Assembly (NCBI GenBank): GCA_020073445.1
Contig: JAIQFE010000007.1
Coordinates: 1-64,000 of the forward strand
Direction: 5' to 3'
Origin: Terriglobia bacterium
GTDB lineage: Bacteria; Acidobacteriota; Terriglobia; Bryobacterales; Bryobacteraceae
DNA length: 64,000 bases
Shown here piece after piece: positions 2,457-31,150 of the stretch. Both the position numbers and the translations under genes were made by a program. Positions within the stretch are counted from its first letter, which is position 1. Each line of letters opens with the position of its first letter. The notes under the pieces are model-generated. The model was given only the letters and a program-made list of their open reading frames with translations, was not told the DNA's origin and made no database searches.

Positions 2457-2541
2457 GGAATGGGACTGCCTCCAATTCCGAAGAACCAGTCCGGCCCCTG
2501 TCCAAAGCGCTTCGCCGGAATTGGCTGGCTGTCCCCATTCC
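2457..2541. repeat. Dispersed hairpin repeat, class A, copy 1
   Basis: The left arm (2457-2480) begins GGAATGGGACTGCC and the right arm (2516-2541) ends GGCTGTCCCCATTCC. The arms are near-complementary over about 24 bases, including an inner AATTCCG/CGGAATT stem. It sits directly after the ubiD stop and before tRNA-His. The outer GGGACTGCC/GGCTGTCCC blocks recur at 7629 and 31075 with different inner stems. Confidence 0.8.
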
Positions 2542-2575
2542 TAAACGTCGCGCTACTGTTAAACTAAAGAGACGC

Positions 2576-2653
2576 GGCGGCTGTAGCTCAGTTGGTAGTA
2601 GCGCCAGATTGTGGTTCTGGATGTCGTGGGTTCAAATCCCACCAGCCGCCCCA
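2576..2653 (+). tRNA. tRNA-His (GTG anticodon)
   Basis: The cloverleaf is clear: an extra 5' G at 2576 facing C73 (typical of tRNA-His), a 7-bp acceptor stem GCGGCTG/CAGCCGC, anticodon loop TTGTGGT on a CCAGA/TCTGG stem, a T arm with GGGTTCAAATCCC, and an encoded CCA at 2651-2653. The D stem has a C/T mismatch at its inner end, so it is slightly weaker than usual. Its 3' 21 bases are duplicated at 4869-4889, marking it as an integration target. Confidence 0.95.
2633..2653 (+). repeat. Left attachment-site repeat (attL, tRNA-His 3' end)
   Basis: These 21 bases form the T-arm 3' half, acceptor 3' strand and CCA of the tRNA. They are identical to 4869-4889. Insertion here leaves the tRNA intact, the usual outcome of tyrosine-recombinase integration at tRNA 3' ends. 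Confidence 0.8.
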
Positions 2654-2941
2654 AAGTCCCCCACAAGTTCTCAAAGAGTTGCGCGCCGACTCGCGGACCG
2701 TCTCTGCGCTTCGTCTCTCGCGTTCCGGTCCCCTGCACTTCGCCTATTACCTCTGCCGGACCACAAGACGTTGGCCTGCGATGAATCCAAACTGACAGAT
2801 CATGTCTGGGAATCGGCGAACTACTGGCGTAGAATAAGGCGAAGTCGATTCAGAAACTTCGATTAGGCTGCCATCGCTCGGATGCTGCAAACGATATGGC
2901 GTGAGAAGCGGCCGGATTGGACTGTATCATGAATCTCATGA

Positions 2942-3706
2942 GTGAACCATATGGGATTGATCAAGGCTCTCCGAGAGGAGATGCCGGTAATTAGGCAGGC
3001 TCCGTGGGCTATCGGATCTTCCGTTCTCATCCTGACGGCAGCGGCAGCGGTCGTGATCTATGCTCTGTTTAGTGCGGATCTGTCAGCCAAGACTAGTCTA
3101 ATAAATACGCTGACAGGGCAAGTAGCAGCCCTTCAACGAGAGGTAGAAACCCTCAAGAGCGGGGCGAAGACTGATCCCCCGCCGAATGTGCAAACTCGTC
3201 CAGAGCCAGCCAAGAGATTCGCCCCTGCGACACCAAAAGTAGATCGGTCAGTCAAGATTGGCAATAAGAACGAATTCACAAACAGCCCCATAGTCACGGG
3301 AGATGGGAATACTGTTAACGTGAATCCCATCGCGCCGCCCAGGAAACTTACCAAGGAGCAAGAGGATAGGCTGGAGGCGTTAGTTAAATCAATAGGACCA
3401 CACGAGATCGCCTTCCGCCATAGCCCAGGAAATGATGACGCCCAACAGTTCGCCGATCAATTGCAGGGAGTAATTGTTACGCGTGGAGGTTGGAAATCCA
3501 CACGGCCAAAATTCCTAATCGCCCAACGGGAGGTGTATGGCGTTTGGGTATTTGTTCAGAGCGCAGACGCTCCTCCACCTGCGGCCACAATGCTCTTGGA
3601 CGCGCTAAATGACAAATTCTTGGCGTTGGGTGCGAAGGGGATTGAGGTTCCTGACTTAGCCCCAGGCTCAATTGATTTGATGGTTGGTTTGCCAGAAAAA
3701 AAGTGA
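2942..3706 (+). CDS. Unrecognised single-pass membrane protein of the island
   Basis: No family is recognised. The 254-aa product has a short cytoplasmic N-terminus, one transmembrane helix around residues 24-45 (GSSVLILTAAAAVVIYALF), a likely coiled coil at about 50-73 (LINTLTGQVAALQREVETLK), a proline-rich linker, then an Asn/Gly/Thr-rich strand-like stretch around 105-128 (NKNEFTNSPIVTGDGNTVNV) and a globular C-terminal half. Starts at GTG 2942 or ATG 2951 are both possible. Its base composition is less GC-rich than flanking core genes, in line with acquisition together with the island. Confidence 0.7.
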   Translation: MNHMGLIKALREEMPVIRQAPWAIGSSVLILTAAAAVVIYALFSADLSAKTSLINTLTGQVAALQREVETLKSGAKTDPPPNVQTRPEPAKRFAPATPKVDRSVKIGNKNEFTNSPIVTGDGNTVNVNPIAPPRKLTKEQEDRLEALVKSIGPHEIAFRHSPGNDDAQQFADQLQGVIVTRGGWKSTRPKFLIAQREVYGVWVFVQSADAPPPAATMLLDALNDKFLALGAKGIEVPDLAPGSIDLMVGLPEKK

Positions 3707-4018
3707 ACGTCCTCCGTCGGAAACACGTGTCGTCAGAGGCACTATGCTCTCGTCGACAGGTGCCGGAAGGTATATCGCGGCTGCAGGCTCGGGTTTCTTC
3801 ACCCTTCCCTCTCTTCTCAGCAACACGATTTTAGTGAACCGAAGGACTTCCATTGGGTCCAATGGAAGTGAGCTACCGATCCGCGCTGGGCAGAGTATTG
3901 GGACTACTAGCACTCACAATCTAACGCCAATCGCCCAGAATCTGCCTTTCTTGGTGTATACTACGTGGAACATTTGCAGTCAAATTTACACTCGGCTTAA
4001 GTGCCACGAGGTAACCAA
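3707..4018. other. Intergenic region of the island with a perfect 24-nt dyad
   Basis: About 310 bp separate the two island genes. No convincing gene is seen. It contains a perfect inverted repeat at 3846-3869 (11-bp arms ACTTCCATTGG around GT) without a T-run, which could be a protein binding site or RNA hairpin. TATACT at 3957-3962 could be a -10 element for the downstream PEP-CTERM gene, but no clean -35 is visible. Confidence 0.5.
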
Positions 4019-4750
4019 ATGTCTAGAGGGAAACTAGCTGTTCTCTTTGCGGCGTCATGTTTAGCGGCGTTCGGAAGTACGATCGTCGTTCCAAATTTCA
4101 ATGCAGGTAACGTGGGCAATGAAACGGATTCCACGGACGGCGGTGGTGACGTTCGATCCCAACAGCTTCTCGGATCAGGCCAGTTTTCCTCAGTGGGCGG
4201 CTCGCTCCTGATCGATCAACTTTCCTTCCGCGCTTCTCCAGGAACGGGACCGGTGGACTTCAGCATGGCCTCCCTGAGCCTTTATTTATCCACTAGCTCA
4301 AAGTTTCCGAATACGGGTGGTCCACTCCTGAGCACGACTTACGCGGACAATGTCGGGCCTGACAACACACTGGTATTTTCTGGTCCCGTTTCTTTTACCT
4401 CTCCTGGCTGCGCGGGTCCTGCCGTATGTCCATTCGACCTTAATATAAATTTCACGACTCCCTTCTTGTACAACCCCACGCTTGGCAGACTCCTGCTCGA
4501 CCTCAATATTACCGGTCTTTCTGGCGGCGATGGTAAGTTGGACTCCGTCAGCTTCCCTGGGCCCAACGGTGGCAGCATCGCCAACGTTTCCGGCGTATTG
4601 AATGACGCAACCGGCAATTTCGGTTTTGATGGAGATATTGTCCAGCTTCGCTACACGGCAGTTCCGGAACCCACCGCTGGAGCACTGATGTTCATGGGCG
4701 CAGCGGCTCTAGCGCTGATGAAGCGCCATCGCTCTGCGAGGGCGCATTGA
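4019..4750 (+). CDS. PEP-CTERM sorting-signal protein
   Basis: The 243-aa protein is exported and probably surface-displayed or released. It has an N-terminal signal peptide (KLAVLFAASCLAAFG), a beta-rich body with many Ser/Thr/Gly/Asn residues, and a C-terminal PEP-CTERM tail: VPEP near residue 216, a hydrophobic helix (TAGALMFMGAAALALM) and a basic end KRHRSARAH. Such tails are recognised by exosortase in Gram-negative bacteria; no exosortase gene lies in the window. ATG 4019 is preferred over 4001 because the signal peptide then begins normally. The body is unassigned; lectin-like or polymer-associated roles are common in the group. Confidence 0.8.
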   Translation: MSRGKLAVLFAASCLAAFGSTIVVPNFNAGNVGNETDSTDGGGDVRSQQLLGSGQFSSVGGSLLIDQLSFRASPGTGPVDFSMASLSLYLSTSSKFPNTGGPLLSTTYADNVGPDNTLVFSGPVSFTSPGCAGPAVCPFDLNINFTTPFLYNPTLGRLLLDLNITGLSGGDGKLDSVSFPGPNGGSIANVSGVLNDATGNFGFDGDIVQLRYTAVPEPTAGALMFMGAAALALMKRHRSARAH

Positions 4751-4868
4751 AACGGCCAGGGCTAGAATCGCGGCCCGTCTCTGTACCGTCTCTCTGAAGC
4801 CCGATTCGCTAGGTTTGTCGGGTTCCGCATGTCTCGGAGTCCACGGGAACACGGACCTCGGTGTCTTC

Positions 4869-4889
4869 CAAATCCCACCAGCCGCCCCA
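4869..4889 (+). repeat. Right attachment-site repeat (attR)
   Basis: An exact 21-bp copy of the 3' end of tRNA-His, without the rest of the tRNA. It marks the far end of the inserted segment. Confidence 0.8.
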
Positions 4890-4903
4890 GAGTTCGACCC
4901 TGC

Positions 4904-5245
4904 TTAGGCCGCTCGCTTGGGCTTATTCTTCGCGTTCGTTAGCCGCTTGCGTCCGCCCCAGGCCTCGTTCATCAAATTGCGCAAGTCGCGAATCGCGCTG
5001 GTGTGAATCGCGGACACGGTGTCGAGCCAGCAGTTGTGGCAGGGGAACATATTCTCTTTTGTCTCCAACCCGCCCGCAAGTTGCCTTTCGTACTCCTCCC
5101 TGATGAACCGGAGTTCTGTCCGTGCCCACTGCCAGCGGAGCTTCTCGTCTGGGGGGAGGCGGAATTTTGGAAGGCTTTTGCTGAGGGGGGTCTCAATGGC
5201 GTTACCGCAGCGATAGCACTTATGTTGGGTTTTTGCTTTAGCCAT
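4904..5245 (-). CDS. Hypothetical protein with two CxxC pairs
   Basis: The family is not recognised. The 113-aa product has CYRC near residue 10 and CHNC near residue 69, a layout that suggests a single zinc site, with a basic N-terminus (MAKAKTQHK) and C-terminus (KNKPKRAA) and a charged helical middle. That makes a small zinc-binding or nucleic-acid-associated protein plausible. It ends 15 bp from the attR repeat and may be native or part of a composite island. No neighbouring gene reads with it. Confidence 0.6.
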   Translation of the reverse strand: MAKAKTQHKCYRCGNAIETPLSKSLPKFRLPPDEKLRWQWARTELRFIREEYERQLAGGLETKENMFPCHNCWLDTVSAIHTSAIRDLRNLMNEAWGGRKRLTNAKNKPKRAA

Positions 5246-5426
5246 AATCGGTTATCGGCGGCCCCCGCTCCGGGCCTTAGAGCGCACCCTTAAATTCGGT
5301 TTAATGCCGACCGAGTCGCCTAAAGTCCCACGTTTTGGGGAACCAATCACTAGTATCCTCAATCGAGGCGGCCTATGCAATGCGCCTCAAACCCTTCGCG
5401 ACCGATTCCGTCTATAGTAGTGATAT

Positions 5427-6032
5427 ATGCAAGATGAGCAGGGCACGCCTGCGGTAAGTGTGCCTCCTACAACCGTGCCCGCGGCAAACCCGCCCGGGAC
5501 CCTGTCGCCCGCGGTCGCCCGCAACGCGATTTCCTGGCTGCGCGATCTTTCGGTTAGCGTGGTCATCGCGATCATCGTCATCTTGTTCCTTTACCAGCCA
5601 GTCAAGGTCGAAGGCACCAGCATGACGCCGGCCCTCATCAACGAAGAGCGCATCTTCATCAACAAGTTCGTCTACCGCTTCGGCTTATCCGATATCGTCC
5701 GCGGCGATACGATCGTGTTCTGGGCACCCGAAGATCCTTCCAGGTCCTACATCAAGCGCGTGATCGGCGTCCCCGGCGACGTGGTCGAGATCGTCGACGG
5801 CACGGTGATTCTCAACGGCAAGCGCCTGGAAGAGCCGTACCTTATCGACATCAACCGCGATCGGATGTCGATGAGCCGCCGCTTGGTCGAAGCCGGGCAC
5901 TATTTTGTCCTGGGCGACCACCGTAACTCCTCGAACGACAGCCGCAGCTGGGGCACCGTCGCGCGCGACGCCATCTACGGTAAGGCCGTGTTCGTGTATT
6001 GGCCGCTGAACCGCCTGGGTCTTCTGCGCTAA
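5427..6032 (+). CDS. lepB: Signal peptidase I
   Basis: This membrane serine protease removes signal peptides from secreted proteins. The 201-aa protein has a proline/alanine-rich N-terminus, one transmembrane segment at about residues 45-63 (LSVSVVIAIIVILFLYQ), the catalytic serine in VEGTSMTPAL, the catalytic lysine in RSYIKRVIGVPGD, and the family box GDHRNSSNDSRSWG. Length fits short type I peptidases with a single anchor. It converges on the DUF2905 gene 3 bp away. It would serve the many signal-peptide proteins in this window. Confidence 0.93.
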   Translation: MQDEQGTPAVSVPPTTVPAANPPGTLSPAVARNAISWLRDLSVSVVIAIIVILFLYQPVKVEGTSMTPALINEERIFINKFVYRFGLSDIVRGDTIVFWAPEDPSRSYIKRVIGVPGDVVEIVDGTVILNGKRLEEPYLIDINRDRMSMSRRLVEAGHYFVLGDHRNSSNDSRSWGTVARDAIYGKAVFVYWPLNRLGLLR

Positions 6033-6035
6033 ACC

Positions 6036-6272
6036 CTATTTCCGCCCGATCAGCCACATTGCCAGGCTTAGGACCGCACTCACCACCAGGCACGTCACCA
6101 CTGGAAAGTAGAAAACGCCGTTCTTTCCGCGCACCACGATGTCGCCCGGCAAGCGACCCAGCTTGATCGGCAGCCGGTCGCCCAGCGTCATCAGAATGCC
6201 TATGGCGACCAGAATGAGTCCGATGATGATGACGGTTCGTCCCACGTCTTCATCATAGCTTCGAGCTTGCAC
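6036..6272 (-). CDS. DUF2905 family small membrane protein
   Basis: The 78-aa product has two transmembrane segments (VIIIGLILVAIGILMTL and a second near the C-terminus) separated by the conserved loop LGRLPGDIVVRGKNGVFYFPVVTC. This GRLPGDI...FYFP core is the DUF2905 signature. Function is unknown for the family. It reads against lepB and is divergent from gdhA with about 34 bp between starts. Confidence 0.85.
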   Translation of the reverse strand: MQARSYDEDVGRTVIIIGLILVAIGILMTLGDRLPIKLGRLPGDIVVRGKNGVFYFPVVTCLVVSAVLSLAMWLIGRK

Positions 6273-6306
6273 TGAGGGTGTTCGATAATGGGGGCGGAGC
6301 TCTCAT

Positions 6307-7623
6307 ATGATCACGGAATCCGCGCCGCCTTCGACTCTCCCACCCACCCCGACACTCAAAGCCGTAGACGGAATCGCGGACGAGTTTAACCCGCGCTTGT
6401 CCGCCGAAGCCCGCTTCGACGAAGCGGCCGAGCGTCTGGGGCTCGATGACGGGATGCGCAAGGTCCTGCGATCCCCGTCGCGCGAAATCATTGTCCACAT
6501 TCCGGTCCAGCTCGACGACGGGCGCCTGGAGGTATTCACCGGCTATCGCGTGCAGCATTCCATCGCGCGCGGGCCGGCCAAAGGCGGCATTCGTTACGCG
6601 CCCGACGTGACGCTCGACGAAGTCCGCGCGCTGGCTGCCTGGATGACCTGGAAATGCGCGGTGACCAACGTCCCATTCGGCGGCTCGAAGGGCGGGGTCA
6701 TCTGCGATCCGTCGATTCTTTCGCCTGTGGAACTGGAGCGCATCACGCGCCGCTATACCGCGGAGCTGTTCGAGTTTATCGGCCCTGAAATCGACGTTCC
6801 GGCGCCCGACGTCAACACCAATGACCAGACCATGGCGTGGATCATGGACACGTATTCTATGCACGCCCGCAAGACCGTGACCGCCGTGGTTACGGGCAAG
6901 CCCATCGACCTGGGAGGCTCGCGCGGACGCACCGAAGCGACCGGGCGCGGATGCATGATCGTCATCGATCAGGCCTTGCGCCGCCTGGGCCTCGACCGTT
7001 CGTCAACGCGCGTGGTGATCCAGGGATTCGGCAACGTAGGCGGCATGTCGGCCAAGCTGATGGCGCGCGCCGGTTTCAAGATTGTTTGCATCATCGAATT
7101 CGACGGCGCGGTTTACAATCCAAACGGTCTCGATATTCCGGCGCTGCTCAAGCACCGCAAGGACACCGGATCGATCACCGACTTTCCCGGGGGACAGAAC
7201 ATGGACCGCGAGGAGGCCATGTTCCTGGAAACCGACGTACTCTTGCCCGCCGCACATGAGAACGTCATCACCTCCAAGAACGCCTCCAAACTGCGGACCA
7301 AGATCCTGTGCGAGGGCGCCAACGGCCCCACCACCCATTTCGCCGATCCCATCCTGTCCGAGAAGGGCATCTTCGTGATCCCGGATATTCTGGCCAACGC
7401 TGGCGGCGTCACGGTGTCGTATTTCGAATGGGTGCAGGATCGCCAGGGCTACTTCTGGAATGAACAGATGGTCAACGATCGCCTGGAAGAGATCATGGTG
7501 AATAGCTTCAATGACGTGGTCGCCTACGCTGAGAAGCATGGCGTCAACAACCGTACGGCCGCGTATATGCTCGCCCTGGATCGCGTGGCTTTCGCCATCA
7601 AGCTTCGCGGTATCTACGCTTAG
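6307..7623 (+). CDS. gdhA: Glu/Leu/Phe/Val dehydrogenase (glutamate dehydrogenase)
   Basis: The enzyme interconverts glutamate and 2-oxoglutarate plus ammonia with NAD(P). The 438-aa protein has the substrate lysines in KGGIRYAP and [19 protein letters not shown] (about residues 95-125), the catalytic aspartate region [17 protein letters not shown], and the Rossmann motif [13 protein letters not shown] near residue 240. Length fits the hexameric family. N-terminal 20 residues are Pro-rich and poorly conserved. Coenzyme preference is not decidable here. A class A hairpin repeat follows its stop. Confidence 0.92.
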
Positions 7624-7628
7624 TATCC

Positions 7629-7709
7629 GGGGGACTGCCTACCTGTTTCCACGCGGAGGATGGCCCGGTTCCATCAAAAAGGCGTCGAGGAAACAGGCTG
7701 GCTGTCCCC
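7629..7709. repeat. Dispersed hairpin repeat, class A, copy 2
   Basis: The left arm (7629-7650) reads GGGGGACTGCCTACCTGTTTCC in part and pairs with the right arm (7689-7709), GGAAACAGGCTGGCTGTCCCC in part. Outer blocks match copies at 2457 and 31075, while the inner stem CTGTTTCC/GGAAACAG is private to this copy yet still complementary. Confidence 0.8.
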
Positions 7710-7752
7710 TCTTCTTCGGTAGACTGAAAGATCGGTCAGGAGAACCTCTTCA

Positions 7753-8364
7753 ATGAAAATCGCCGTCATCGGCGCGACCGGTAACGCCGGATCGCGCATC
7801 GTAACCGAGCTGTTGAGCCGCGGACATCAGGTCCTCGGCATCGCCCGCCATCCCGAGAAAATGCAGCCTCGCCCTGGTCTCACCCTGACGCAAGGCGACG
7901 TGAAAGACGAAGCCGGCCTGGCGCAACTGCTCACAGGCCAGGAAGCGGCCATCCACAGCGTGAGGTTTCTCGACACGAGCGCGCAGTCCGCCATCGGCGC
8001 CGCCAAGAAATCCGGCGTCAAGCGATTCCTGGTCGTCGGAGGCGCGGGCAGTCTCGAAGTCTCGCCGGGAGCGGCGCTCATCGACCAGCCTAATTTCCCC
8101 GAGGTTGCCAGGCCCGAAGCCACCGCCGGCCGCGATTTCCTCAACACTCTGAAGACCGAGGGCGATTTGGACTGGACCTACTTGTCCCCATCCGCCTTCT
8201 TCAGCCCCGGGGAGCGCACCGGCAAGTTTCGTGTCGGCAAAGACCAATTGCTTACCGCCGCCGATGGGCAGAGCAAAATCTCCATGGAAGACTACGCCAT
8301 CGCCCTCGCCGATGAGATCGAAAAGCCGCAGCACAGCCGCCAGCGCTTCACCGTCGGCTATTAG
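7753..8364 (+). CDS. NAD(P)-binding atypical SDR (NmrA/YwnB-like)
   Basis: The 203-aa protein starts with a Rossmann motif (MKIAVIGATGNAGSRIVTEL) and continues with the pattern of NAD(P)H-binding atypical short-chain dehydrogenases: a GDV strand, the VKRFLVVGGAGSLEV strand, and the LDWTYLSPSAFFSPGERTG segment. Proteins of this type reduce small carbonyls or act as redox sensors; the specific substrate is unknown. AGGAGAACC lies ahead of the ATG as ribosome binding site. It reads with pdxS, 54 bp downstream, but a functional link is not evident. Confidence 0.8.
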   Translation: MKIAVIGATGNAGSRIVTELLSRGHQVLGIARHPEKMQPRPGLTLTQGDVKDEAGLAQLLTGQEAAIHSVRFLDTSAQSAIGAAKKSGVKRFLVVGGAGSLEVSPGAALIDQPNFPEVARPEATAGRDFLNTLKTEGDLDWTYLSPSAFFSPGERTGKFRVGKDQLLTAADGQSKISMEDYAIALADEIEKPQHSRQRFTVGY

Positions 8365-8418
8365 TTTGGCTCTGAAACCCAGCAATGCGATGATGGAGAT
8401 GTACCTGGAGAAAGGATT

Positions 8419-9303
8419 ATGTATCTTTCCGACGACTTCCGCTTGAAAGTCGGCCTGGCCGAAATGCTCAAAGGCGGGGTCATTATGGACGTGACCAACG
8501 TCGAGCAGGCCAAGATCGCCGAGAAGGCCGGCGCTTCCGCCGTGATGGCGCTGGAGCGCGTCCCGTCCGATATTCGCAAAGAGGGCGGCGTTTCGCGCAT
8601 GGCGTCCATCAAGATCATTCGCCAGATCATGGACACCGTTTCGATTCCGGTGATGGCCAAGGCCCGCATCGGCCATTTTATGGAGGCTCGGATCCTGGAA
8701 GCGCTCGGCGTCGATTATATCGACGAGAGCGAAGTGCTCACTCCGGCTGACGAAGAGCACCACATCGACAAGAAGACTTACAAGGTTCCGTTCGTATGCG
8801 GAGCACGCAACCTGGGCGAGGCTCTGCGCCGCATCGCCGAAGGCGCCGCGATGATCCGCACCAAGGGCGAGGCCGGCTCCGGAAATATCGTCGAAGCGGT
8901 CCGGCATATCCGCACCATCGTCAAAGAGATGAAGCATCTGACGATCCTTGGCAAGGAAGAGCTGGTGCACGAGGCGAAGAACCTCGGTGCGCCGCTCGAG
9001 CTGGTGGAATGGGTCGCGGCCAACGGCAAGCTGCCCGTGCCGAATTTCTCGGCCGGTGGCATCGCGACGCCCGCCGACGCGGCGCTGGTGATGCAGCTCG
9101 GCGCGGAAGCCGTGTTCGTCGGCAGCGGCATCTTCAAATCCGAGGATCCCGACTCGCGCGCTCGCGCCATCGTCAAGGCTGCCACGTATTACAACGATCC
9201 GGTGAAGCTGCTCGAAGCCAGCGAAGAGCTGGGCGAAGCCATGCGCGGCCTGGACGTTTCCAAGCTCCCCGAAAGCGAGCTCCTCCAGACCCGCGGCTGG
9301 TAG
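8419..9303 (+). CDS. pdxS: Pyridoxal 5'-phosphate synthase, synthase subunit PdxS
   Basis: PdxS condenses ribose 5-phosphate, glyceraldehyde 3-phosphate and ammonia into pyridoxal 5'-phosphate in the DXP-independent vitamin B6 route. The 294-aa protein carries the family blocks [31 protein letters not shown], the active-site lysine of [26 protein letters not shown], and the phosphate-binding [14 protein letters not shown] and [25 protein letters not shown] precedes the ATG. The glutaminase PdxT follows 33 bp downstream; a small hairpin lies between. Confidence 0.97.
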
Positions 9304-9306
9304 TAG

Positions 9307-9326
9307 GTCCGGCCTTCAGGCCGGAC
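9307..9326. repeat. Short perfect hairpin between pdxS and pdxT
   Basis: GTCCGGCCT and AGGCCGGAC face each other around TC (effective 8-bp stem, loop TTCA). There is no T-run, so it is more likely an RNA-stability or translation-tuning hairpin, or a small dispersed repeat, than a terminator. Confidence 0.6.
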
Positions 9327-9336
9327 GACCGACTTG

Positions 9337-9897
9337 ATGAAGACCATCGGTATCCTCGCCCTCCAGGGCGATTTCGACGCTCATCGCAAAGCCGTGGAGC
9401 GCGCAGGCGGACGGCCCGTCGAAGTCCGCACGGCCAAGGACTTGGACGCCTGCGACGGCCTCATCGTGCCCGGCGGCGAGAGCACCACCATGCTCAAGCT
9501 GCTCGATATCGAGAACCTGACCGAGCCTCTCCGCCAGTTTGCCGCCCGCAAGCCCGTCTTCGGCACCTGCGCCGGCGCGATCCTGCTGGCGCATTCCGTG
9601 ACGAAGCCCGCGCAGCCCAGCCTCAACTTGATCGATATCGACGTCGAGCGCAACGCCTACGGGCGCCAGATCGACAGCCGGATCACTCGCGTTCAAGCAG
9701 GTGATGACGAGTTGGAGGCGGTCTTCATCCGCGCGCCGAAAATCCTGCGCGTCGGCTCCGGCGGGAAAATTCTGGCTACCTGCGATGGCGATCCGGTGTG
9801 GGTGGAGCAGGGCAGGCACATGGTGACCACGTTCCATCCCGAGCTCACGCAGGATTCCCGCGTCCACCAGAGGTTCTTGGAGAAACTGACTACTTAA
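9337..9897 (+). CDS. pdxT: Pyridoxal 5'-phosphate synthase, glutaminase subunit PdxT
   Basis: PdxT hydrolyses glutamine and channels ammonia to PdxS. The 186-aa class I glutamine amidotransferase begins KTIGILALQGDFDAH, has the oxyanion motif IVPGGESTTM, the nucleophile in FGTCAGAILLA and the His-Glu pair in TTFHPELTQD. ATG 9337 is chosen; the TTG directly before it is also in frame. The 3' end overlaps the convergent LolA-like gene by 8 bp. Confidence 0.96.
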   Translation: MKTIGILALQGDFDAHRKAVERAGGRPVEVRTAKDLDACDGLIVPGGESTTMLKLLDIENLTEPLRQFAARKPVFGTCAGAILLAHSVTKPAQPSLNLIDIDVERNAYGRQIDSRITRVQAGDDELEAVFIRAPKILRVGSGGKILATCDGDPVWVEQGRHMVTTFHPELTQDSRVHQRFLEKLTT

Positions 9898-10573: not shown

Positions 10574-10580
10574 GGTCGCC

Positions 10581-10919: not shown

Positions 10920-10982
10920 TACCCTCTATGGTAACAAGTCCGATATGTGGGGCAGGATTGCATCCTGCACGCGGGTTTGTTG

Positions 10983-11072
10983 AAAAAGGGGACAGGCTAC
11001 TCTGTCCCCTCCTGTAAGCTCCTGACTTCGCCTGCCAGTTGGGGAGTGGACAGAGCTGCCTGTCCCCTTTTT
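10983..11072. repeat. Dispersed hairpin repeat, class B, copy 1
   Basis: The ends AAAAAGGGGACAGG (10983-10996) and CCTGTCCCCTTTTT (11059-11072) are perfectly complementary. Inside, CTCTGTCCCCTCC and GGAGTGGACAGAG add a second set of near-complementary arms. A sister copy lies at 29176-29268 and shares the ordered internal motifs. The terminal T-run could also stop transcription from either side. Confidence 0.85.
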
Positions 11073-11124
11073 CTTTACGGGATTGCAAAACCTGCCCCAC
11101 ACGAAAAAGAACCGTTGCAGGAAG

Positions 11125-11277: not shown

Positions 11278-11314
11278 GTTTTGATTCTACCGGAGTCCCG
11301 TCCCGGAAGGCCTT

Positions 11315-11911: not shown

Positions 11912-11914
11912 TTT

Positions 11915-24046: not shown

Positions 24047-24099
24047 CCACCGGTTCGATGAGGTGCTCGGACACGCGTCAAGAAAGGAAGATCGTAGCC

Positions 24100-24840
24100 A
24101 TGTCCAAGACGAAGTATTCAGCCTATTTCAGAATCGCCGCCGCTCTGTTATTCTCGAGCGTCGGCTTCGCGCAGGTCGATATTCAGATCCGATTTGGGCA
24201 GCAACCCGGATGGGATCCTCGGGCGCGCGAAGGCCGCTGTGAGGTCCACATCTGGGTCGACCATCATGCCGAAGTGCGCATGCGCGGAGACGGGATCTTC
24301 GTACGCACCCTGGAAGGCGCCAAGAGCTACGACGAAGGCAGCAAGTGCAGCCAGCCTCTGCCGTACAATTCTATAGGCGATTTTCAGATCCGCCAGATTG
24401 CCGGCCGCAACCGCGTCGAGCTGGTGCAGCAACCGAACCGCTCGAACAACTTCACCGCTTTGGTCGCCATCAACGACGATCAGGGTGGCGGCGATCACTA
24501 CGCCTTCGAAGTGAACTGGCGTTCGGAGGGGGGTGATCGGCCAAACGCTCCCGCCCCATTCTTCGACGACGTCCGCGCGTGTCAGGACGCCGTGCGCCAG
24601 CGCTTTCTGAGCAAGAACGGGCGTGGCGCGTACCTTGATTTCGAGGGCTCCGCAACCCGTCAGAACCAGAATAGGGACCGGGAACAAATCCAGGGCCGTG
24701 GCGAAGCCAGGAATCAGAATGAATCGCGAGATATAACGTACTCCTGCGACATCGATACCCGCACCAACCAGGTACGGTCGGGAACCTATCAGTATTCCCG
24801 CGAAGGTTACCGCACGAACGAGCGTAGCCGTCTGAAGTAG
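24100..24840 (+). CDS. Secreted hypothetical protein
   Basis: The 246-aa product starts with a signal peptide (YFRIAAALLFSSVGFAQ). The body includes EVHIWVDHHAEVRMRGDGIF, repeated short beta strands and two cysteines, followed by an Arg/Gln/Asn-rich linker and a C-terminal strand pair. No family is recognised. ATG 24100 gives a proper signal peptide; AAGGAAG lies upstream. It follows the FecR-type gene in the same direction and may share its transcript. Confidence 0.65.
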   Translation: MSKTKYSAYFRIAAALLFSSVGFAQVDIQIRFGQQPGWDPRAREGRCEVHIWVDHHAEVRMRGDGIFVRTLEGAKSYDEGSKCSQPLPYNSIGDFQIRQIAGRNRVELVQQPNRSNNFTALVAINDDQGGGDHYAFEVNWRSEGGDRPNAPAPFFDDVRACQDAVRQRFLSKNGRGAYLDFEGSATRQNQNRDREQIQGRGEARNQNESRDITYSCDIDTRTNQVRSGTYQYSREGYRTNERSRLK

Positions 24841-24852
24841 AGTGGAGGAAAC

Positions 24853-26171
24853 GTGGCCGTGGCCTCAACGTCTGTTCACGATGGGCCGGGAGGAAATCGG
24901 CCCAGGACCCTTGGCGTCGTGCGCTTGGTGCTGGCGGTTCTCCTCTCGTCGTCGATCTCATACGGCTACACGGTTCTCACCCACGAAGCGATCATAGATT
25001 CGGTCTGGGACGCTTCCCTTCAGAAGCTGCTTCTCAAGCGATTCCCCGACGCGACCCCGGAGCAACTCCAGGAGGCGCACGCCTATGCCTATGGCGGATG
25101 CATCATTCAGGACATGGGATATTATCCGTTCAGCAGCCGCTTTTTCAGCGATCTCACGCATTACGTTCGCAGTGGTGATTTCATTGAGGCTCTGATCCGC
25201 GAGTCGCAGGACCTCAACGAATACGCGTTCGCTCTGGGCGCATTGGAGCACTATGCCGCCGATACCGAAGGGCACCGCCTTGCCACGAACCGCGCCGTAC
25301 CGATCTTCTATCCCGAGCTGCGGCGGAAATACGGAAATGATGTCACCTATTGGGATAATCCGAAGGCCCACGTCAGGACGGAGTTCGGCTTCGATGTGCT
25401 CCAGGTTGCGGCGGGGCGATACGCTCCGGACGGGTATCGAGACTTTATCGGTTTTCAGGTATCCCGGGACTTGTTGGAGCGCGCATTCCTGGATACGTAT
25501 GGCATGGAGATGAAGGATGTGTTCGGAAGCGCTCGCGCTGGGGTCCTACCGGTATGCCGTCGGGTCGATCGTTCCCGGCATGACGAAAGTGGCATGGAAG
25601 CTCAAGCAGGACCAGCTCAAGAAAGAAATCCCTGGCATCACACGCAAGAAGTTTCTCTACAATCTCTCGCGCTCGAGCTATGAAAAGGAATGGGGAACGG
25701 AGTACGCCCGGCTGGGGCACCAGGATCCTGGCGTTCTTCTTCCGATGGCTGCCGGGGACAGGTCCCTTCAGTGCTCTTAAGGTCCGCACGCCGACACCGG
25801 AGGTGGAGAAACTGTTCATGGCCAGTTTCAACGCAACCGTAGACCGCTACAAGGTGCTGTTGGCGAACGTGGACGCCGGCGCGCCTGAGCTGGCAAACGA
25901 GAATTTCGACGCCGGCGGCGCAACTATCGCCGGCAAGTACAAGGGAACCGACGAGGCTTACGCCAAGTTGCTGGATAAGCTGGCAGACCGTAAGTTCGCA
26001 GGCATGCAGCCCGACCTTCGCCAGAATATCCTGGCTTACTACAAGGACCCGAAACTGACACTTCCTGCCAGGTCCAACAGGAAGGAAAGATCCGACTTTA
26101 CGAAGCTGCTGGATCAACTCGAGCGGCTGAAAGCTGCTCCCGAAGCTGTCCCTGCGGTGCAAGCGCCCTAA
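24853..26171 (+). pseudogene. Zn-dependent phospholipase C family gene with two frameshifts
   Basis: The first part (to about 25535) has a signal sequence and the zinc histidines of the Zn_dep_PLPC fold: VLTHEAIIDSVW, DLTHYVRSGDFI, ALGALEHYAADTEGHRLA. The frame then breaks. The family continuation is found in the +1 frame (LALGSYRYAVGSIVPGMTKV ... NLSRSSYEKEWGTEY) and, after about 25705, in the next frame (PGWGTRILAFFFRWLPGTGPF ... FMASFNATVDRY). Each shift is +1, consistent with one extra base each (near 25527 and in the C/G run near 25707). It is either a degraded gene or a pair of sequence errors. Confidence 0.75.
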
Positions 26172-26279
26172 CTATGTATCGCGTGGCGCTCAGGACGAGC
26201 CGCGATGACCATACGACATAGTCCTTTGTGCTCGGTTTCATGTTTTCTCCTGGATGTAAACCAAGCACCTTTAATGCCA

Positions 26280-26326
26280 CTGTTCACAAGATATGCCGCT
26301 CAAGACGTCCGTCGCATAGTGAACAG
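26280..26326. repeat. Intergenic inverted repeat
   Basis: CTGTTCAC (26280-26287) faces GTGAACAG (26319-26326), with a nested TATGC/GCATA pair. It lies in the 214-bp gap before csbD, in which no gene is supported. It could be an operator or RNA structure. Confidence 0.45.
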
Positions 26327-26385
26327 CTGGGCTAGGGCGAACCCTGGGCGTTTGGACTCAATTCTGGCGCATCCACATTGACCAC

Positions 26386-26556
26386 ATGTGGTCACTTCAG
26401 ATCACTGGCAAGCTTCATGAAGTGAAAGGCAAAGTTAAGGAGGCTGCGGGACGGGTCACGAACAACCCCGACTTGACCGCCGAAGGCCAAGTCGAAAAGA
26501 TCGCCGGCAAGATCCAAAAGAAAGTCGGGCAGATTGAAAAGGTTCTTGAGAAGTAG
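26386..26556 (+). CDS. CsbD family protein
   Basis: The 56-aa product has the CsbD layout: TGKLHEVKGKVKEAAGRVTN, then the second helix with AEGQVEKIAGKIQKKVGQIEK. CsbD proteins are small, highly charged, helical and induced by general stress; their molecular action is unknown. It is followed by two further mini-membrane-protein genes, suggesting a stress module. Confidence 0.85.
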   Translation: MWSLQITGKLHEVKGKVKEAAGRVTNNPDLTAEGQVEKIAGKIQKKVGQIEKVLEK

Positions 26557-26596
26557 ATTGGGGTCTGCCCACCCCACGGGCTGAAAGGAAACCGTC

Positions 26597-26809
26597 ATGA
26601 ACAGAACGCTTGGATTCATCCTGATCGCGCTAGGGCTGTTCGGTCTTGCGTGGGGAGGTTTTACGTACACGACCAGCGAGAAGGTCATCGACATCGGACC
26701 GATTCACGCTACTCGCGAAAAGACCCATAGTGTACCGATGCCTCCCATCTTTGGCGCAGTGGCGCTCATTGGTGGGATCGTGCTCTTGGCAATACCGAAG
26801 AAAGCCTAG
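26597..26809 (+). CDS. Small two-helix membrane protein
   Basis: The 70-aa product has two transmembrane helices (LGFILIALGLFGLAWGGFTY and IFGAVALIGGIVLLAI) separated by a loop TTSEKVIDIGPIHATREKTH. Proteins with this TY-T-x-EKV-DIGP loop are common small envelope proteins in soil bacteria; no function is established. GAAAGGAAACC precedes the ATG. Confidence 0.75.
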   Translation: MNRTLGFILIALGLFGLAWGGFTYTTSEKVIDIGPIHATREKTHSVPMPPIFGAVALIGGIVLLAIPKKA

Positions 26810-26838
26810 CTGAGATTCAAGAGAAACGAGGAACGAAC

Positions 26839-26994
26839 ATGCTCTTACTCATCATCATTTTGATATTGCTGTTCGGCGGAGGTGGGGGATATTATGGCCA
26901 CACTCGCTGGGGTCCTAGCGGCGGAGCCGGCGTGGGGCTGGGAACGATCGTGCTGATTCTCCTCATCGCCTACTTGCTCGGCCTATTTCGCTAA
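26839..26994 (+). CDS. DUF3309 family mini-protein
   Basis: The 51-aa product (MLLLIIILILLFGGGGGYYG, then HTRWGPSGGAGVGLGTIVLI and LLIAYLLGLFR) is a glycine-linked two-helix membrane peptide matching the DUF3309 pattern. It is the third gene of the CsbD group. Function is unknown. Confidence 0.85.
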   Translation: MLLLIIILILLFGGGGGYYGHTRWGPSGGAGVGLGTIVLILLIAYLLGLFR

Positions 26995-27036
26995 CGTCCG
27001 GATGTTCCGCTAATGCTTGCGGGCGGCGATGAAGAA

Positions 27037-27870
27037 TCACGTCGCCGCCCGGTAACTCCCGAGCACGCGCAGGAAATCCGCAAGCTCGCCCAGGTGCGCC
27101 AGGGCGTTCTTCACGGCTTGATCGTCACTCCGCCCCAGCAGATCCAGGTAGAACAGATACTCCCAGGGCTTGCCCCGCAGCGGCCGCGATTCGATCTTCA
27201 CCAGGTTCAGGTCGCGCAGAGCCAGCGCGCTGAGCGCCTTGAACAGCGCTCCCGGCATATTCTTTGTGGAGAAGACGAGGGATGTTTTCCACGGGCTCTT
27301 GCTGCCCCGCGCACCCCGCGGCTTTGACCCAGCCGGCTCCAGCAGAAAGAATCGCGTGTAATTCTGAGGATCATCCTCGATCCCGCGTTTCAGGATGTGC
27401 GCCTTGTAGATCTTCGCCGCCAGCTCCGACGCGATGGCCGCTCCGCCGGGCGGGCGCGTTTCCATGACCATCTTCACGCTGCCCGCGGTGTCGTAATACA
27501 CCTCGCGTTCGAGACGCTTGTAGCGGTCGAAGAAATCCAGGCACTGGTTCAGAGCCACCTCGTGCGAATACACCTTGCGGACCTTGGCGAACGTCAGGCC
27601 CGGCGGCGCAATCAGGTTATGCACGATCCGCACGTTAGTTTCCGCCGTGATCGCGAAGTCGTACTTCAACAGCAGGTCGTAATTCGCGTAGATCGACCCA
27701 TGCAGCGTATTCTCGATCGGAATCGCCGCGGCATCCACCGACCCTTTGCCGAGCGCGGCGAACACCTGATCGAACCGCTCGTGCGGCACTGGACGCGCTT
27801 TCGGTCCCAGCAATTGCTGGATCGCCTGCTGGCTGAACGCGCCTAACTCTCCCTGGAATGCGACTCTCAT
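27037..27870 (-). CDS. pheA: Prephenate dehydratase
   Basis: The enzyme makes phenylpyruvate from prephenate for phenylalanine synthesis. The 277-aa protein has the catalytic prephenate dehydratase domain (MRVAFQGELGAFSQQA, ALGKGSVDAAAIPIENTLHG, the TRF motif in NYTRFFLLEP) and a C-terminal ACT domain (FSTKNMPGALFKALSALALR, with the Phe-binding ESRP motif at LVKIESRPLRG). It is monofunctional, without chorismate mutase. Its start overlaps the ubiX stop by 4 bp. Confidence 0.95.
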   Translation of the reverse strand: MRVAFQGELGAFSQQAIQQLLGPKARPVPHERFDQVFAALGKGSVDAAAIPIENTLHGSIYANYDLLLKYDFAITAETNVRIVHNLIAPPGLTFAKVRKVYSHEVALNQCLDFFDRYKRLEREVYYDTAGSVKMVMETRPPGGAAIASELAAKIYKAHILKRGIEDDPQNYTRFFLLEPAGSKPRGARGSKSPWKTSLVFSTKNMPGALFKALSALALRDLNLVKIESRPLRGKPWEYLFYLDLLGRSDDQAVKNALAHLGELADFLRVLGSYRAAT

Positions 27871-28475
27871 TGGCTCCTTGTTGGTCCCGGGGTGTCTTTA
27901 TGTGACCCGTTCCAGCGTCTTGTTTCCGGCGATGGCAATCCGATCAAATCTAATACCCGATCCACGCTCTGATCCACGATCTCCTCCACGCTTTGCGGCT
28001 TGTGATAAAACGCCGGCATCGGCGGCGCGAGGATCGCTCCCATCTCCGCCAGCGACGTCATCGAGCGCAGATGGCCCAGGTGCAGCGGCGATTCCCGCAC
28101 CATCAGCACCAGCTTGCGGCGCTCTTTCAGCGTCACGTCCGCCGCGCGAATCACCAGGTTCGAGCTGATCCCCGCGGCAATCGCCGACATCGTATGAATC
28201 GAGCATGGCGCGATGACCATGCCCGTGGTCAAGAACGACCCGCTCGCCAAACGGCAGCCGATATCTTCCACCGGGTAGGAACAGTCCGCCAGCGCCTTGA
28301 AATCGGCCGCCGCTTTGCCCAGTTCCAGAAACGCCGTGCGCTCGCCCGATCGCGTCAGGATCAGGTGGATCTCGACGTCGCCTGCCGCGCGGAGTTTCTC
28401 GAGCAGCCGCCACCCGTAAATGGAGCCGCTGGCGCCGGTGATTCCTACCACCAGGCGAATAGAGTGATCTGCCAC
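27867..28475 (-). CDS. ubiX: Flavin prenyltransferase UbiX
   Basis: UbiX prenylates FMN to give the cofactor of UbiD decarboxylases. The 202-aa protein has the N-terminal flavin-binding motif VGITGASGSIYGWRLLEKL, the segment ASGSFLTTGMVIAPCSIHTM, and the C-terminal ESPLHLGHLRSMTSLAEMGA and PPMPAFYHKPQ. It is translationally coupled to pheA and divergent from rpiA, and its client ubiD is at 993-2456 in the same window. Confidence 0.95.
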   Translation of the reverse strand: MADHSIRLVVGITGASGSIYGWRLLEKLRAAGDVEIHLILTRSGERTAFLELGKAAADFKALADCSYPVEDIGCRLASGSFLTTGMVIAPCSIHTMSAIAAGISSNLVIRAADVTLKERRKLVLMVRESPLHLGHLRSMTSLAEMGAILAPPMPAFYHKPQSVEEIVDQSVDRVLDLIGLPSPETRRWNGSHKDTPGPTRSQ

Positions 28476-28500
28476 TCCCCGAATCTAACAAAATAGAGGA

Positions 28501-29178
28501 ATGGCTGACGAGCGAGATGAACGAGACCAGTGGAAGAAGTTGGCCGCCGAGTCCGCGGTGACCCAGGTTGAGACCGGTATGATCGTCGGCCTGGGAACCG
28601 GCTCGACGGCCGAATTCGTGCTGCTGGCTCTGGCGCGGCGCATCCGCGAAGGCTTGCGGATCACGGGCGTCCCGACTTCCGAACATACCGCCGTGCGCGC
28701 CCGCGAGCTCGGCATTCCATTGGCCGAGTTGACCGGGCCCATCGACATCGGCATCGACGGGGCAGACGAAGTCGAGCGAAACAAGCTGAGCTTGATCAAA
28801 GGCCACGGCGGAGCGTTGGTGCGCGAAAAGATCGTCGCCCAGGCCAGCGCCCGGTTCCTGGTGGTCGTCGACCAAACCAAGATTGTCAGCCGTCTGGGCG
28901 CGGCGCCGGTGCCTGTCGAAGTGGTCCCATTCGGCTGGCAGGCGACGGCCCGCAGGATCCAGGATCTCGGCGGAAAGCCGGAGCGTCGCGATTTCGTCAC
29001 CGATAACGGCAACTATATTCTGGACTGCTCCTTTGGCTCCATCGAATCCCCCGAGACCGTGACGGTCGTTCTCGACCACATCGCGGGAGTCGTCCAGCAT
29101 GGATTGTTCATCGGCATGGCATCCGAAGTCCACGTAGGCGGATTATCGGGAGTCCAGGTCTTGCTTCCGAACCGCTGA
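28501..29178 (+). CDS. rpiA: Ribose-5-phosphate isomerase A
   Basis: RpiA interconverts ribose 5-phosphate and ribulose 5-phosphate. The 225-aa protein shows GMIVGLGTGSTAEFVL, the IDIGIDGADEV motif with the catalytic acid, KGHGGALVREKIVA and DNGNYILDCSFG. The stop lies inside the left end of a class B repeat. Ribose 5-phosphate also feeds PdxS. Confidence 0.96.
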   Translation: MADERDERDQWKKLAAESAVTQVETGMIVGLGTGSTAEFVLLALARRIREGLRITGVPTSEHTAVRARELGIPLAELTGPIDIGIDGADEVERNKLSLIKGHGGALVREKIVAQASARFLVVVDQTKIVSRLGAAPVPVEVVPFGWQATARRIQDLGGKPERRDFVTDNGNYILDCSFGSIESPETVTVVLDHIAGVVQHGLFIGMASEVHVGGLSGVQVLLPNR

Positions 29179-29268
29179 AAATGGGGACAGGCTACTCTGT
29201 CCCCTCCAGAAAACTCCGACTTTGCCAGTCAGCGTGGGAGTGGACAGAGCTGCCTGTCCCCATTTTCA
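29176..29268. repeat. Dispersed hairpin repeat, class B, copy 2
   Basis: The ends TGAAAATGGGGACAGGC (29176-29192) and GCCTGTCCCCATTTTCA (29252-29268) are perfect 17-base complements. Inner blocks CTCTGTCCCCTCC and GGGAGTGGACAGAG match copy 1 at 10983. The outermost bases differ from copy 1 but still pair. The first three bases are the rpiA stop codon. Confidence 0.85.
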
Positions 29269-29287
29269 TTTAAGCTTGCTCTACGCC

Positions 29288-30022
29288 TTACGGCAGCTTC
29301 CGAAGTAGAGCCTTGGCTTCCTTCAGCCGCTCGAAGTGCTTCTCAGCGTCCTTAAACGCCCGCGTGTGCACGCATCGCCGGGCGCCTTCATGCTCCGCAG
29401 GATGACGCAGATGCAGCATCTCGTGATACATCACGTATTCGACGGCCAGCCGCGGCGTTCCCGGCCGGTCGAAGATCCGGCTGATCACGATCGCGTTGTG
29501 CGAAGGATCGTAATGCCCTAGCATCGTTCGCGACACCTGCTTGCTCCACCCCAGGGTCGGGCGTGCCATCAGTCCAAAGAAATACTTCATGTTCAGTTCC
29601 TCGAACAATTCCACTAGGTCGAAATGCTGGCCCTGCGGCGGGTTCACATGCTTGCGCCCGCGGACCTCGCGCACCAGTTGGATGCTGCGTCGAACGTCGT
29701 GTCGATTGAGATAACGCCGGTACCGGTCGTTGCTCGCCGCCGGAACCGGCCGGCGAAAAAGTTTTGAAAGCAGGATCTCGGCCAGCGCTTCGTGGACGCT
29801 CTCCGGCGCTCCGGCGATCGTGTCCGCCATCCGCACCAGCAGCGTTCCTTCCGCCAGACGGATTTGCGCGTTGGCGTTCGCGTAGCGCCGCACCTGCACT
29901 TCGATCTGGGGCAGGGGAGTGCGCGGCTTCATCCGCCGGAACACGCGCGCGTAAATCTGCTCCGGGGTGGCCGGCTTCGTTGGCTCCCACGCCATATCGA
30001 GCACTGGGCTCTCGACGAACAT
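29288..30022 (-). CDS. SprT/M48-like zinc metallopeptidase-domain protein
   Basis: The 244-aa cytosolic-looking protein has an HExxH zinc motif in YVMYHEMLHLRHP near residue 200 with a further His in CVHTRAFKDAEKHF, preceded by YFFGLMARPTLGWSKQ and YDPSHNAIVISRIFD. This layout resembles SprT-like/YgjP-type metallopeptidase domains. The start at 30022 avoids an upstream extension that would run through fabH. Substrate is unknown. Confidence 0.78.
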   Translation of the reverse strand: MFVESPVLDMAWEPTKPATPEQIYARVFRRMKPRTPLPQIEVQVRRYANANAQIRLAEGTLLVRMADTIAGAPESVHEALAEILLSKLFRRPVPAASNDRYRRYLNRHDVRRSIQLVREVRGRKHVNPPQGQHFDLVELFEELNMKYFFGLMARPTLGWSKQVSRTMLGHYDPSHNAIVISRIFDRPGTPRLAVEYVMYHEMLHLRHPAEHEGARRCVHTRAFKDAEKHFERLKEAKALLRKLP

Positions 30023-30079
30023 CTCCTTCGAAAGGTAACATGGAGCGTTGTACCCAAGGAGAAAGAATTGCCAGGAGTG

Positions 30080-31066
30080 ATGTCGGGAGTAAAGATCAGC
30101 GCCCTGGGCTGCTACGTGCCGCCCGGGATTCTCAGCAACCACGATCTCGAAAAGATGGTCGAGACCAGCGACGAATGGATTCTGCAGCGCGTCGGAATCT
30201 CCGAGCGCCACATCGCTGCCCCGGATGTCGCCACTTCGGACATGGCGGTCAAAGCCGCTCGCGCGGCGCTGGAACAGCGTGGCATCCAGGGCAGTGAACT
30301 CGACGCGATCCTGGTATGTACGGTCACGCCGGACATGATGTTTCCCTCCACGGCGTGTCTGGTGCAGCACCAGCTCGGCGCAAAGCACGCCTGGGGATTC
30401 GATCTGGTTGCCGCTTGCTCGGGTTTCGTCTACGGACTCACCACCGCCGCTCACTTGATTAAAGCGGGCACGCACAAAAGAGTCCTGGTCATCGGAGCCG
30501 ACACCATGTCGCGCATCATCGATTACACCGATCGCAACACCTGCGTGCTATTTGGCGACGGTGCCGGTGCCATGCTGCTCGAACCGTCCGACGAGGAAGA
30601 CGCCTTCATCGGATTCCTCAACGAGATCGACGGGGCTGGCGGCGACTTTCTGAAGATGCCCGCGGGCGGAAGCCGTATGCCCGCCAGCGCCGATACCGTC
30701 AGCCACCATCTTCACTACGTGAAGCAGGATGGGCAGCAGGTTTTCAAGTACGCTGTGCGCAAGATGTTTGAAGTCTGCACCGAATTGCTGAACCGGAACG
30801 GCCTCACGATCAACGACGTGAAATTGCTGATCCCGCACCAGGCCAATCGCCGGGTGATCACCGCCGTCTCTGAGCGGCTCGGCATCGATTGCGAGCGCGT
30901 GATCATCAACATCGACCGTTACGGCAACACCACCGGTGCCACCATTCCCCTGGCAACGCGCGACGCCATCGAGAGCGGAAAACTGAAGAAGGGCGATATC
31001 GTGCTGTTCACGGCGGTAGGCGCTGGCTTTACCGTCGGCGCGAATTTGTGGCGCTGGGCGTATTAG
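30080..31066 (+). CDS. fabH: 3-oxoacyl-ACP synthase III
   Basis: FabH starts fatty acid synthesis by condensing acetyl-CoA (or branched acyl-CoA) with malonyl-ACP. The 328-aa protein has the nucleophile Cys in AACSGFVYGL, the His in LIPHQANRRV, the Asn in YGNTTGATIPLA, and LFGDGAGAMLLE. The ATG at 30080 follows CAGGAG; a TTG at about 30068 behind AAGGAG is a possible alternative. It is divergent from the peptidase gene and is followed by a class A repeat. Confidence 0.95.
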   Translation: MSGVKISALGCYVPPGILSNHDLEKMVETSDEWILQRVGISERHIAAPDVATSDMAVKAARAALEQRGIQGSELDAILVCTVTPDMMFPSTACLVQHQLGAKHAWGFDLVAACSGFVYGLTTAAHLIKAGTHKRVLVIGADTMSRIIDYTDRNTCVLFGDGAGAMLLEPSDEEDAFIGFLNEIDGAGGDFLKMPAGGSRMPASADTVSHHLHYVKQDGQQVFKYAVRKMFEVCTELLNRNGLTINDVKLLIPHQANRRVITAVSERLGIDCERVIINIDRYGNTTGATIPLATRDAIESGKLKKGDIVLFTAVGAGFTVGANLWRWAY

Positions 31067-31074
31067 CAGGCTAA

Positions 31075-31150
31075 GGGACTGCCCACCGATTTCGAAAAAC
31101 GAGCACGACGCCTGACCGCAGCATGTCCCCGAAATCGGCTGGCTGTCCCC
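31075..31150. repeat. Dispersed hairpin repeat, class A, copy 3
   Basis: The left arm (31075-31094) starts GGGACTGCCCACCGATTTCG and pairs with the right arm (31130-31150) CGAAATCGGCTGGCTGTCCC. The inner stem CGATTTCG/CGAAATCG differs from the other two copies but remains fully complementary. Confidence 0.8.

Follow-up and report, generated by a model that had tools for sequence, protein, structure and literature searches.

What are three intergenic hairpins that share their outer blocks, differ in their inner stems and pair in every copy? The question arises from a 64,000-nucleotide stretch of the genome of a Terriglobia bacterium (Acidobacteriota, Bryobacterales; assembly GCA_020073445.1, contig JAIQFE010000007.1, positions 1 to 64,000), which we call the window. 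An earlier note had described three such elements there, as class A, and had proposed repetitive extragenic palindromes (REPs) moved by REP-associated tyrosine transposases (RAYTs, of the Y1 type) as a model. The explanation that we favour, with a probability of about 0.7, is that they are REPIN-like, non-autonomous mobile hairpins of a TIRYT-type RAYT in Bryobacterales. TIRYTs have been described as RAYT relatives whose Y1 genes are flanked by terminal inverted repeats (TIRs) of the form GGGGWSAS, with the best-defined group coming from Acidobacteria (PMC3733652).

A hairpin family with paired stem changes

All three class A elements were found where the earlier note had placed them, and its description of them holds. 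Each has the outer blocks GGGACTGCC ... GGCTGTCCC, and the inner arms pair with their own partners: AATTCCG/CGGAATT, CTGTTTCC/GGAAACAG and CGATTTCG/CGAAATCG in elements 1, 2 and 3. In order, the three elements follow genes for a UbiD-family decarboxylase, a glutamate dehydrogenase (a label whose matches score below NCBIfam's own cut-offs) and a FabH-type ketosynthase, each element starting 5–8 nt past the stop codon.

2462..2536, + strand: class A element 1, GGGACTGCC ... GGCTGTCCCC, inner stem CCAATTCCG/CGGAATTGG; the flanking GGAAT/ATTCC pair too
7630..7709, + strand: class A element 2, inner stem CCTGTTTCC/GGAAACAGG; subclass A2, as in loci L062 and L067
31075..31150, + strand: class A element 3, inner stem CCGATTTCG/CGAAATCGG, the main class

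The predicted hairpins are about 75–80 nt in size. At the base is a stem GGGGAC/GTCCCC (elements 1 and 3 lack its outermost G–C pair), followed by a mismatched T·T and a stem of 3 bp, GCC/GGC. Above these come a small internal loop, with CT on one side and T, TA or CA on the other, an inner stem about 9 bp long and a terminal loop of about 30–40 nt. Folding z-scores are −3.90, −4.26 and −3.69 for elements 1, 2 and 3, with 0 of 200 shuffles as good in each case. An Rfam scan of the window returned a tRNA alone above threshold; in four loci, Rfam gave one sub-threshold match (E 0.096, 28 of 90 bits).

A pattern that fixes the two outer blocks alone occurs at 25 places in the source genome of the window (G000, 6.58 Mb) and at none in the reversed control; the window repeats are therefore not a product of chance. 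The nine inner positions are all paired at 23 of these places and eight are paired at the other two. Four pairs have changed on both sides, a result that none of 500 column shuffles matched, and 99.1% of the cells compared are paired, falling to 22–60% once partners are slid. Because most of the 25 places have the inner stem CCGATTTCG/CGAAATCGG, two of the three window copies are minority variants.

The genome-wide covariance-model search that the earlier note had named as a check extends the family. With a model built from the 25 places, we found at least 37 distinct places in the source genome (28 close copies and 9 more distant ones), a lower bound given that 150 of 6398 first-look candidates were scored; 23 of the 60 matching rows are antisense readings of the same places. 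Six of the nine distant copies resemble window element 2 in their inner stems (for example, CCTGTTTCC/GGAAACAGG or CGAATTTCC/GGAATTTCG), and the other three (CTCTGTCCCC against GTGGACAGAG) are of the type of a second hairpin class in the window, class B (listed below), so that classes A and B represent one architecture.

Matches to the covariance model at E up to 1e-4 are present in 9 of 41 genomes, including the source genome. G019, a sister species of the same genus, has 43 places (64 rows, of which 21 are antisense), and G020 has one close copy. More distant copies with inner stems of their own, for example CCTTTTTCG/CGAAAAAGG, occur in G005, G018, G003, G006 and G037, the last of which belongs to another family of the order. 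Across 23 genomes of the genus, the pattern GGGACTG...CTGTCCC was found at 37 places in G000, 34 in G005, 32 in G019 and 35 in G018, and at 0–4 places in each remaining genome; the reversed control gave 0–1 per direction.

The pairing test on these places covered 113 of 142 from five genomes (36 of 37 in G000, all 34 in G005, all 32 in G019, 8 of 35 in G018 and 3 of 4 in G003), and most of the 27 places of G018 that fell outside it belong to a different, shorter GGGACTGTCCC family. Eight or nine of the nine inner positions are paired in 101 of the 113 elements, seven in another 7 and fewer in 5. Mean inner pairing is 8.4, compared with 6.3 when partners are swapped (maximum of 6.8 in 2000 swaps), and at least seven inner stems occur on the one frame. 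The 3-bp stem co-varies as well (GCC/GGC in 63 elements, GAC/GTC in 38 and GGC/GCC in 4). As this pattern fixes T on both sides of the mismatch, the mismatch was counted separately with the position left free: G000 and G019 each have T·T in 23 of their 25 class A copies. Compensatory change by itself does not separate selection on the fold from the copying of one arm onto the other by template switching.

Transposase genes and their ends

The proposed link to a RAYT is supported. Genes for Y1_Tnp proteins number eight in G000, three in G019 and two in G020, and perfect inverted repeats of 17–35 bp flank six of the eight in G000. The ends of one RAYT recur as stand-alone hairpins in the sister species. 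This gene, L027 in G000, and its G019 counterpart (L148, the same as L093, on contig C76) both lie between GGGACAGCCTGCATGTTTCC and GGAAACATGCAGGCTGTCCC; 20-mers of these ends, inverted in the same way, also delimit a hairpin of 63 bp at G019 C193:51341-51403. With one base of the pattern left free, both arms of an element on G019 C32 match the 20-mers with one mismatch each, and an element on G019 C115 matches with 0 mismatches in one arm and 3 in the other. The 20-mer arms of these G019 elements resemble the CCTGTTTCC arms of window element 2. A RAYT flanked by the repeat of its elements was seen for CATGTTTCC ends and was not found for the main CCGATTTCG class.

L027 occupies G000 C53:68031-68843 (L027 1396-2211), the same place as the C76 gene in G019, and the same neighbouring frame follows both. 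L027 lies next to a frame that we take, from recognition by eye, to be lpxD-like. The two genes are broken differently, yet their terminal repeats are perfect over 20 bp or more.

The REP part of the model did not stand as proposed: the elements are not GTAG-tagged REPs, and their ends instead fit the GGGGWSAS repeats of TIRYT, the sister group of RAYTs. On the bottom strand, the right end reads GGGGACAG in 27 of the 28 close copies and TGGGACAG in the other. Y1 genes lie between such repeats in the same genome in two cases, L027 in G000 and L148 in G019, both interrupted. Among relatives, in which 25 of 35 Y1 rows were examined, GGGACAG-type ends were found at 6 of the 25 RAYT loci, including L148; two of the six are similar copies from G005. 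L094, from another Acidobacteriia metagenome-assembled genome (MAG; contig CAIRSA010000587.1), is open over 240 codons and has ends (GGGGACAGCCCGCATGTTTCC / GGAAACACGCGGGCTGTCCCC) close to the 63-bp element of G019. One RAYT of G000 is 91% identical to a protein in the Bryobacterales MAG RYN_19, its nearest named relative.

The Y1 proteins match Y1_Tnp above cut-off and the NCBIfam REP-associated family below it (REP_Tyr_transpos, 75–76 bits for L027 and L026 and 59 bits for L030; cut-off of 80). L027 contains NHVH, FWQ and YVELNP before it closes at 151 amino acids; L026 (241 amino acids) contains NHVH, LWQ and YVEKNP; and L030 is 236 amino acids in length. No Pfam helix-turn-helix domain was found in L026 or L030 at E up to 5, and in the PDB, L026 matches Escherichia coli TnpA-REP (4ER8, E 0.0029) and nothing else at E up to 0.1. 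According to PMC6006769, subclass 2.1 ranks second in size within the Y1 transposase family and includes 20 of 26 TIRYTs; it is characterized by the motifs NHVH, W[EQ] and Y[IV]ELNP, a median length of 238 amino acids and a helix-turn-helix-like domain at the C-terminus.

A search of G000, G019 and G020 for 21-mer arms, allowing up to 3 mismatches, returned arms of elements, halves next to complete copies and a small number of isolated matches, and no transposase with main-stem ends. One lone arm, at G019 C235, was considered as a transposase end and looks like a truncated element; a contig end on C20 with a partial Y1 gene (L031/L292) has no CGATTTCG arm. The class A covariance model, run against 17 RAYT loci, gave three weak matches (E 0.35–0.70), two of which are the two strands of the 3′ end of L027.

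The elements are similar to the TIRtrons and TIRYTs of PMC3733652 in their GGGGWSAS ends, in the presence of a Y1 gene between TIRs and in their clustering. The TIRs are described there as moderately abundant families, many of them in dimers or clusters; here, an array of class A units with a spacing of about 118 bp occupies G019 C117:1-620, and a cluster of elements lies at G000 C83:75260-77172. A conserved basal mismatch, co-varying inner stems and several stem classes per frame were seen here and are not part of the description of TIRtrons in the relevant portion of that paper. Tandem class A units about 118 bp apart also occur at G000 C82:122900-123160, and at this locus and the G019 array, partial left-arm duplications adjoin full copies.

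The elements also resemble the REPINs of Pseudomonas fluorescens SBW25, which, as described in PMC3116915, combine two conserved inverted ends with a variable spacer, form a long hairpin in single-stranded DNA, commonly show compensatory changes, have a RAYT partner and are extragenic; the GI unit of that strain spans 71 bp between the first residues of its ends. Here, too, two inverted conserved ends enclose a variable spacer and form one hairpin. Unlike SBW25 REPINs, our elements lack GTAG-tagged REP ends, were found in fewer copies, have a GGGGAC basal block and are associated with a longer, TIRYT-type RAYT. The GTAG or GTGG foot of REPINs is replaced by GGGGAC at the start of the element, and GTAG itself is confined to internal positions, on the bottom strand of those copies whose internal loop is TA. 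A further parallel comes from E. coli, for which PMC8266576 reports that TnpA-REP depends for its activity on a conserved mispair in the REP stem and that the upper stem and loop have a non-specific structural role, the upper stem being required as structure rather than sequence. The E. coli REPs differ in their crucial GTAG motif, in their unit size of 29–37 nt and in the RAYT group that acts on them.

We propose the following mechanism. Two inverted copies of a TIRYT terminal repeat would enclose a short variable loop, such that the whole element, as single-stranded DNA, would form one long hairpin. A TIRYT-type RAYT, an HuH/Y1 single-strand transposase, would recognize the base of this hairpin, from GGGGAC/GTCCCC through the T·T mismatch and the 3 bp above it to the internal loop. 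For the upper stem, pairing alone would be needed, leaving its sequence free to change as long as both arms change. A fixed base with a mismatch and a free but paired upper stem would parallel the division of labour in E. coli TnpA-REP, and the roles that we assign to the mismatch and the inner stem follow that analogy. Cleavage of these hairpins by the transposase is a prediction from sequence. The RAYT with matching ends was probably once active, and the main class may be moved by a relative of it that has been lost, was not assembled or escaped recognition.

A bolder idea, to which we give somewhat less than even odds, is that TIRYTs read the GGGGAC basal stem with its T·T mismatch and ignore the sequence of the upper stem, so that one enzyme lineage could drive many hairpin classes, distinguished by their inner stems alone, and could flip elements in place. 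If so, a TIR-flanked RAYT branch reported without REP-like structures would join the hairpin-processing enzymes. Much of the principle is already known, both compensatory changes in REPINs and a transposase that reads structure; among the open-licence titles listed in our searches, none concerned these Bryobacterales elements. Elements with TIRYT-type ends here form long hairpins with a conserved mispair and paired stem changes, which yields a direct and testable substrate prediction for subclass 2.1, with seven or more inner stems on one frame as a natural set of variants.

Orthologous sites and competing explanations

G019, G020 and G005 have no element at window site 1, and G019 and G020 have none at site 3. 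At site 2, G020 has no element and G019 retains the left arm alone, which makes it probable that this insertion is older and has been partly deleted in G019. Gain in G000 is the simpler reading of these sites.

Thirteen orthologous sites were compared between G000 and G019. They were taken from G019 loci chosen for holding elements, and pairs occupied in both species are therefore over-represented: 10 have the same class in the same orientation, 1 the same class inverted and 1 another class inverted, and 1 is empty in G019. The loci around orthologous elements align at 75–89%. Within the 11 same-class pairs, arms are 96.2% identical (436 of 453 positions) and loops 69% (272 of 393), and arms that are so much better kept than loops must be held by selection or by copying. 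Compensated double changes were found at two sites. At L060/L132, the loop ranks first of 32 for its ortholog; at L036/L080, the loop of the ortholog ranks 12 of 32, making this a weak case of compensation in place. This ranking was made without L034, the counterpart of which (L121) lies outside the strict pattern. At G000 C89:43667 and G019 C153:5036 (L059/L140), the AAACC/GGTTT flanks are common to both species, and a class A element in one stands opposite an element of the CGAATTTTC class in the other orientation.

Copying is what template switching during replication (quasipalindrome correction) would bring about. One arm would be copied onto the other and the element would at times be flipped, giving complementarity without selection on the fold; arm homogenization and spacer inversion are among the outcomes of template switching described in PMC8604942, and PMC8794818 presents it as able to create and maintain RNA hairpins. 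Several of our observations fit. L044 and its G019 counterpart L126 have opposite orientations at one orthologous site, with an alignable loop (23 of 34 positions equal), although an inversion in place is suggestive only, as a copy elsewhere shares the top loop score among 32. Two of the 11 orthologous pairs (L035/L127 and L038/L089) differ by T·T versus A–T. In addition, 15 of 34 copies pair outward by 4 or more further bp, compared with a mean of 4.6 (maximum of 9) when sides are swapped. For the paired changes, template switching is a serious alternative, but it does not serve as one for the mismatch, the frame that the copies share or the ends of the RAYT: copying would erase the T·T mismatch and the asymmetric internal loop, which are kept in most copies and speak for recognition of the fold, and it leaves the shared outer blocks, the many insertion sites and the ends of the RAYT unexplained. 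Overall, we consider template switching improbable as the explanation. A function in RNA is also unlikely to be the main reason that the hairpins are kept. Positions in favour of such a function, as bidirectional terminators or 3′ end protectors, come from 34 copies, with genes predicted by a home-made codon-usage gene caller and distances measured from the ends of the model. Nineteen copies start within 15 nt after a same-strand stop codon, and 8 have their end no more than 15 nt from a stop codon on the opposite strand, compared with 7 gene starts at such a distance; their neighbours are convergent in 15 cases, run in the same direction in 13 and are divergent in 2, with 2 copies inside a predicted frame and 2 with one neighbour undetermined. 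Four or more T residues occur in the 7 nt after the stem in 17 copies, and 13 have both A and T tracts; the high conservation of arms relative to loops would also suit an RNA role. A clean T run is absent from all three window copies, however, and the element is dispensable at the window sites, as the relatives compared lack it or have lost it. Avoidance of promoters alone would place insertions behind genes, and neither a fixed GGGGAC block nor a T·T mismatch is needed for a terminator. The hairpins may serve secondarily as terminators or 3′ protectors.

An ordinary miniature inverted-repeat transposable element of a DDE transposase, with GGGGAC terminal repeats, would likewise be short, mostly intergenic and multicopy with inverted ends. 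We consider this very improbable. No target-site duplication was found above chance (0 of 34 copies at 5–8 nt; 2 at 4 nt, compared with 4.7 in swapped controls), and this explanation was set aside on that ground, with no search made for DDE genes themselves. Transposition by Y1 enzymes of the IS200/IS605 type is expected to leave no target duplication. A non-conserved loop and co-varying inner arms, as seen here, are not required by duplex-binding transposases, and ends of the same type flank Y1 genes.

Several findings weigh against TIRYT-mobilized hairpins. The RAYT gene with matching ends appears disrupted in both genomes. The reading frame of L027 stops after 151 codons; that of L093/L148 stops after 179, and its C-terminal motif lies in a different frame. 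Because both are interrupted in their C-terminal part, neither is evidence of a working enzyme today. None of the Y1 genes at the fetched loci of G000 (8), G019 (3) and G020 (2) has CCGATTTCG ends, and the left end of the elements is mostly GGGGACTG, whereas the RAYT ends are GGGGACAG. In the survey of PMC6006769, subclass 2.1, which is presumed to be the TIRYT group, had no REP-like structures. In the 11 orthologous pairs, 11 single arm changes stand against 2 compensated doubles, and a further double change leaves a mismatch in one species. Loss in relatives, as opposed to gain in G000, could also account for the window sites.

Class B and other repeats and transposase genes

The two class B repeats of the window have the same architecture as class A, and in G000 all four class B copies have A–T at the mismatch site.

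10983..11072, + strand: class B element, same frame, inner stem CTCTGTCCCCTCC vs GGAGTGGACAGAG; A–T replaces T·T
29178..29266, + strand: class B element; G019 is without an element at the orthologous place
41301..41332, − strand: single class B-like arm, a self-complementary unit with GGGGACAGACTACTCTGTCCCC on the minus strand

A further, GC-rich class of inner stem on the same frame (CGCTGCCCC or CACTGCCCC, then GAGCG) occurs at G000 C47:44088-44172, C53:33952-34038 and C86:37432-37515. The short repeats of G018 are about 59–62 bp in length, have the form GGGACTGTCCC...GGACTGTCCC and probably constitute a separate hairpin family in G018. Quite different perfect inverted repeats of 18–35 bp, several of which have palindromes of the GGCTTCAGCC or GTGGGGC type, flank a further group of Y1 genes: L028, L032 and L033 in G000 and L151, L154, L157, L164 and L168 in relatives.

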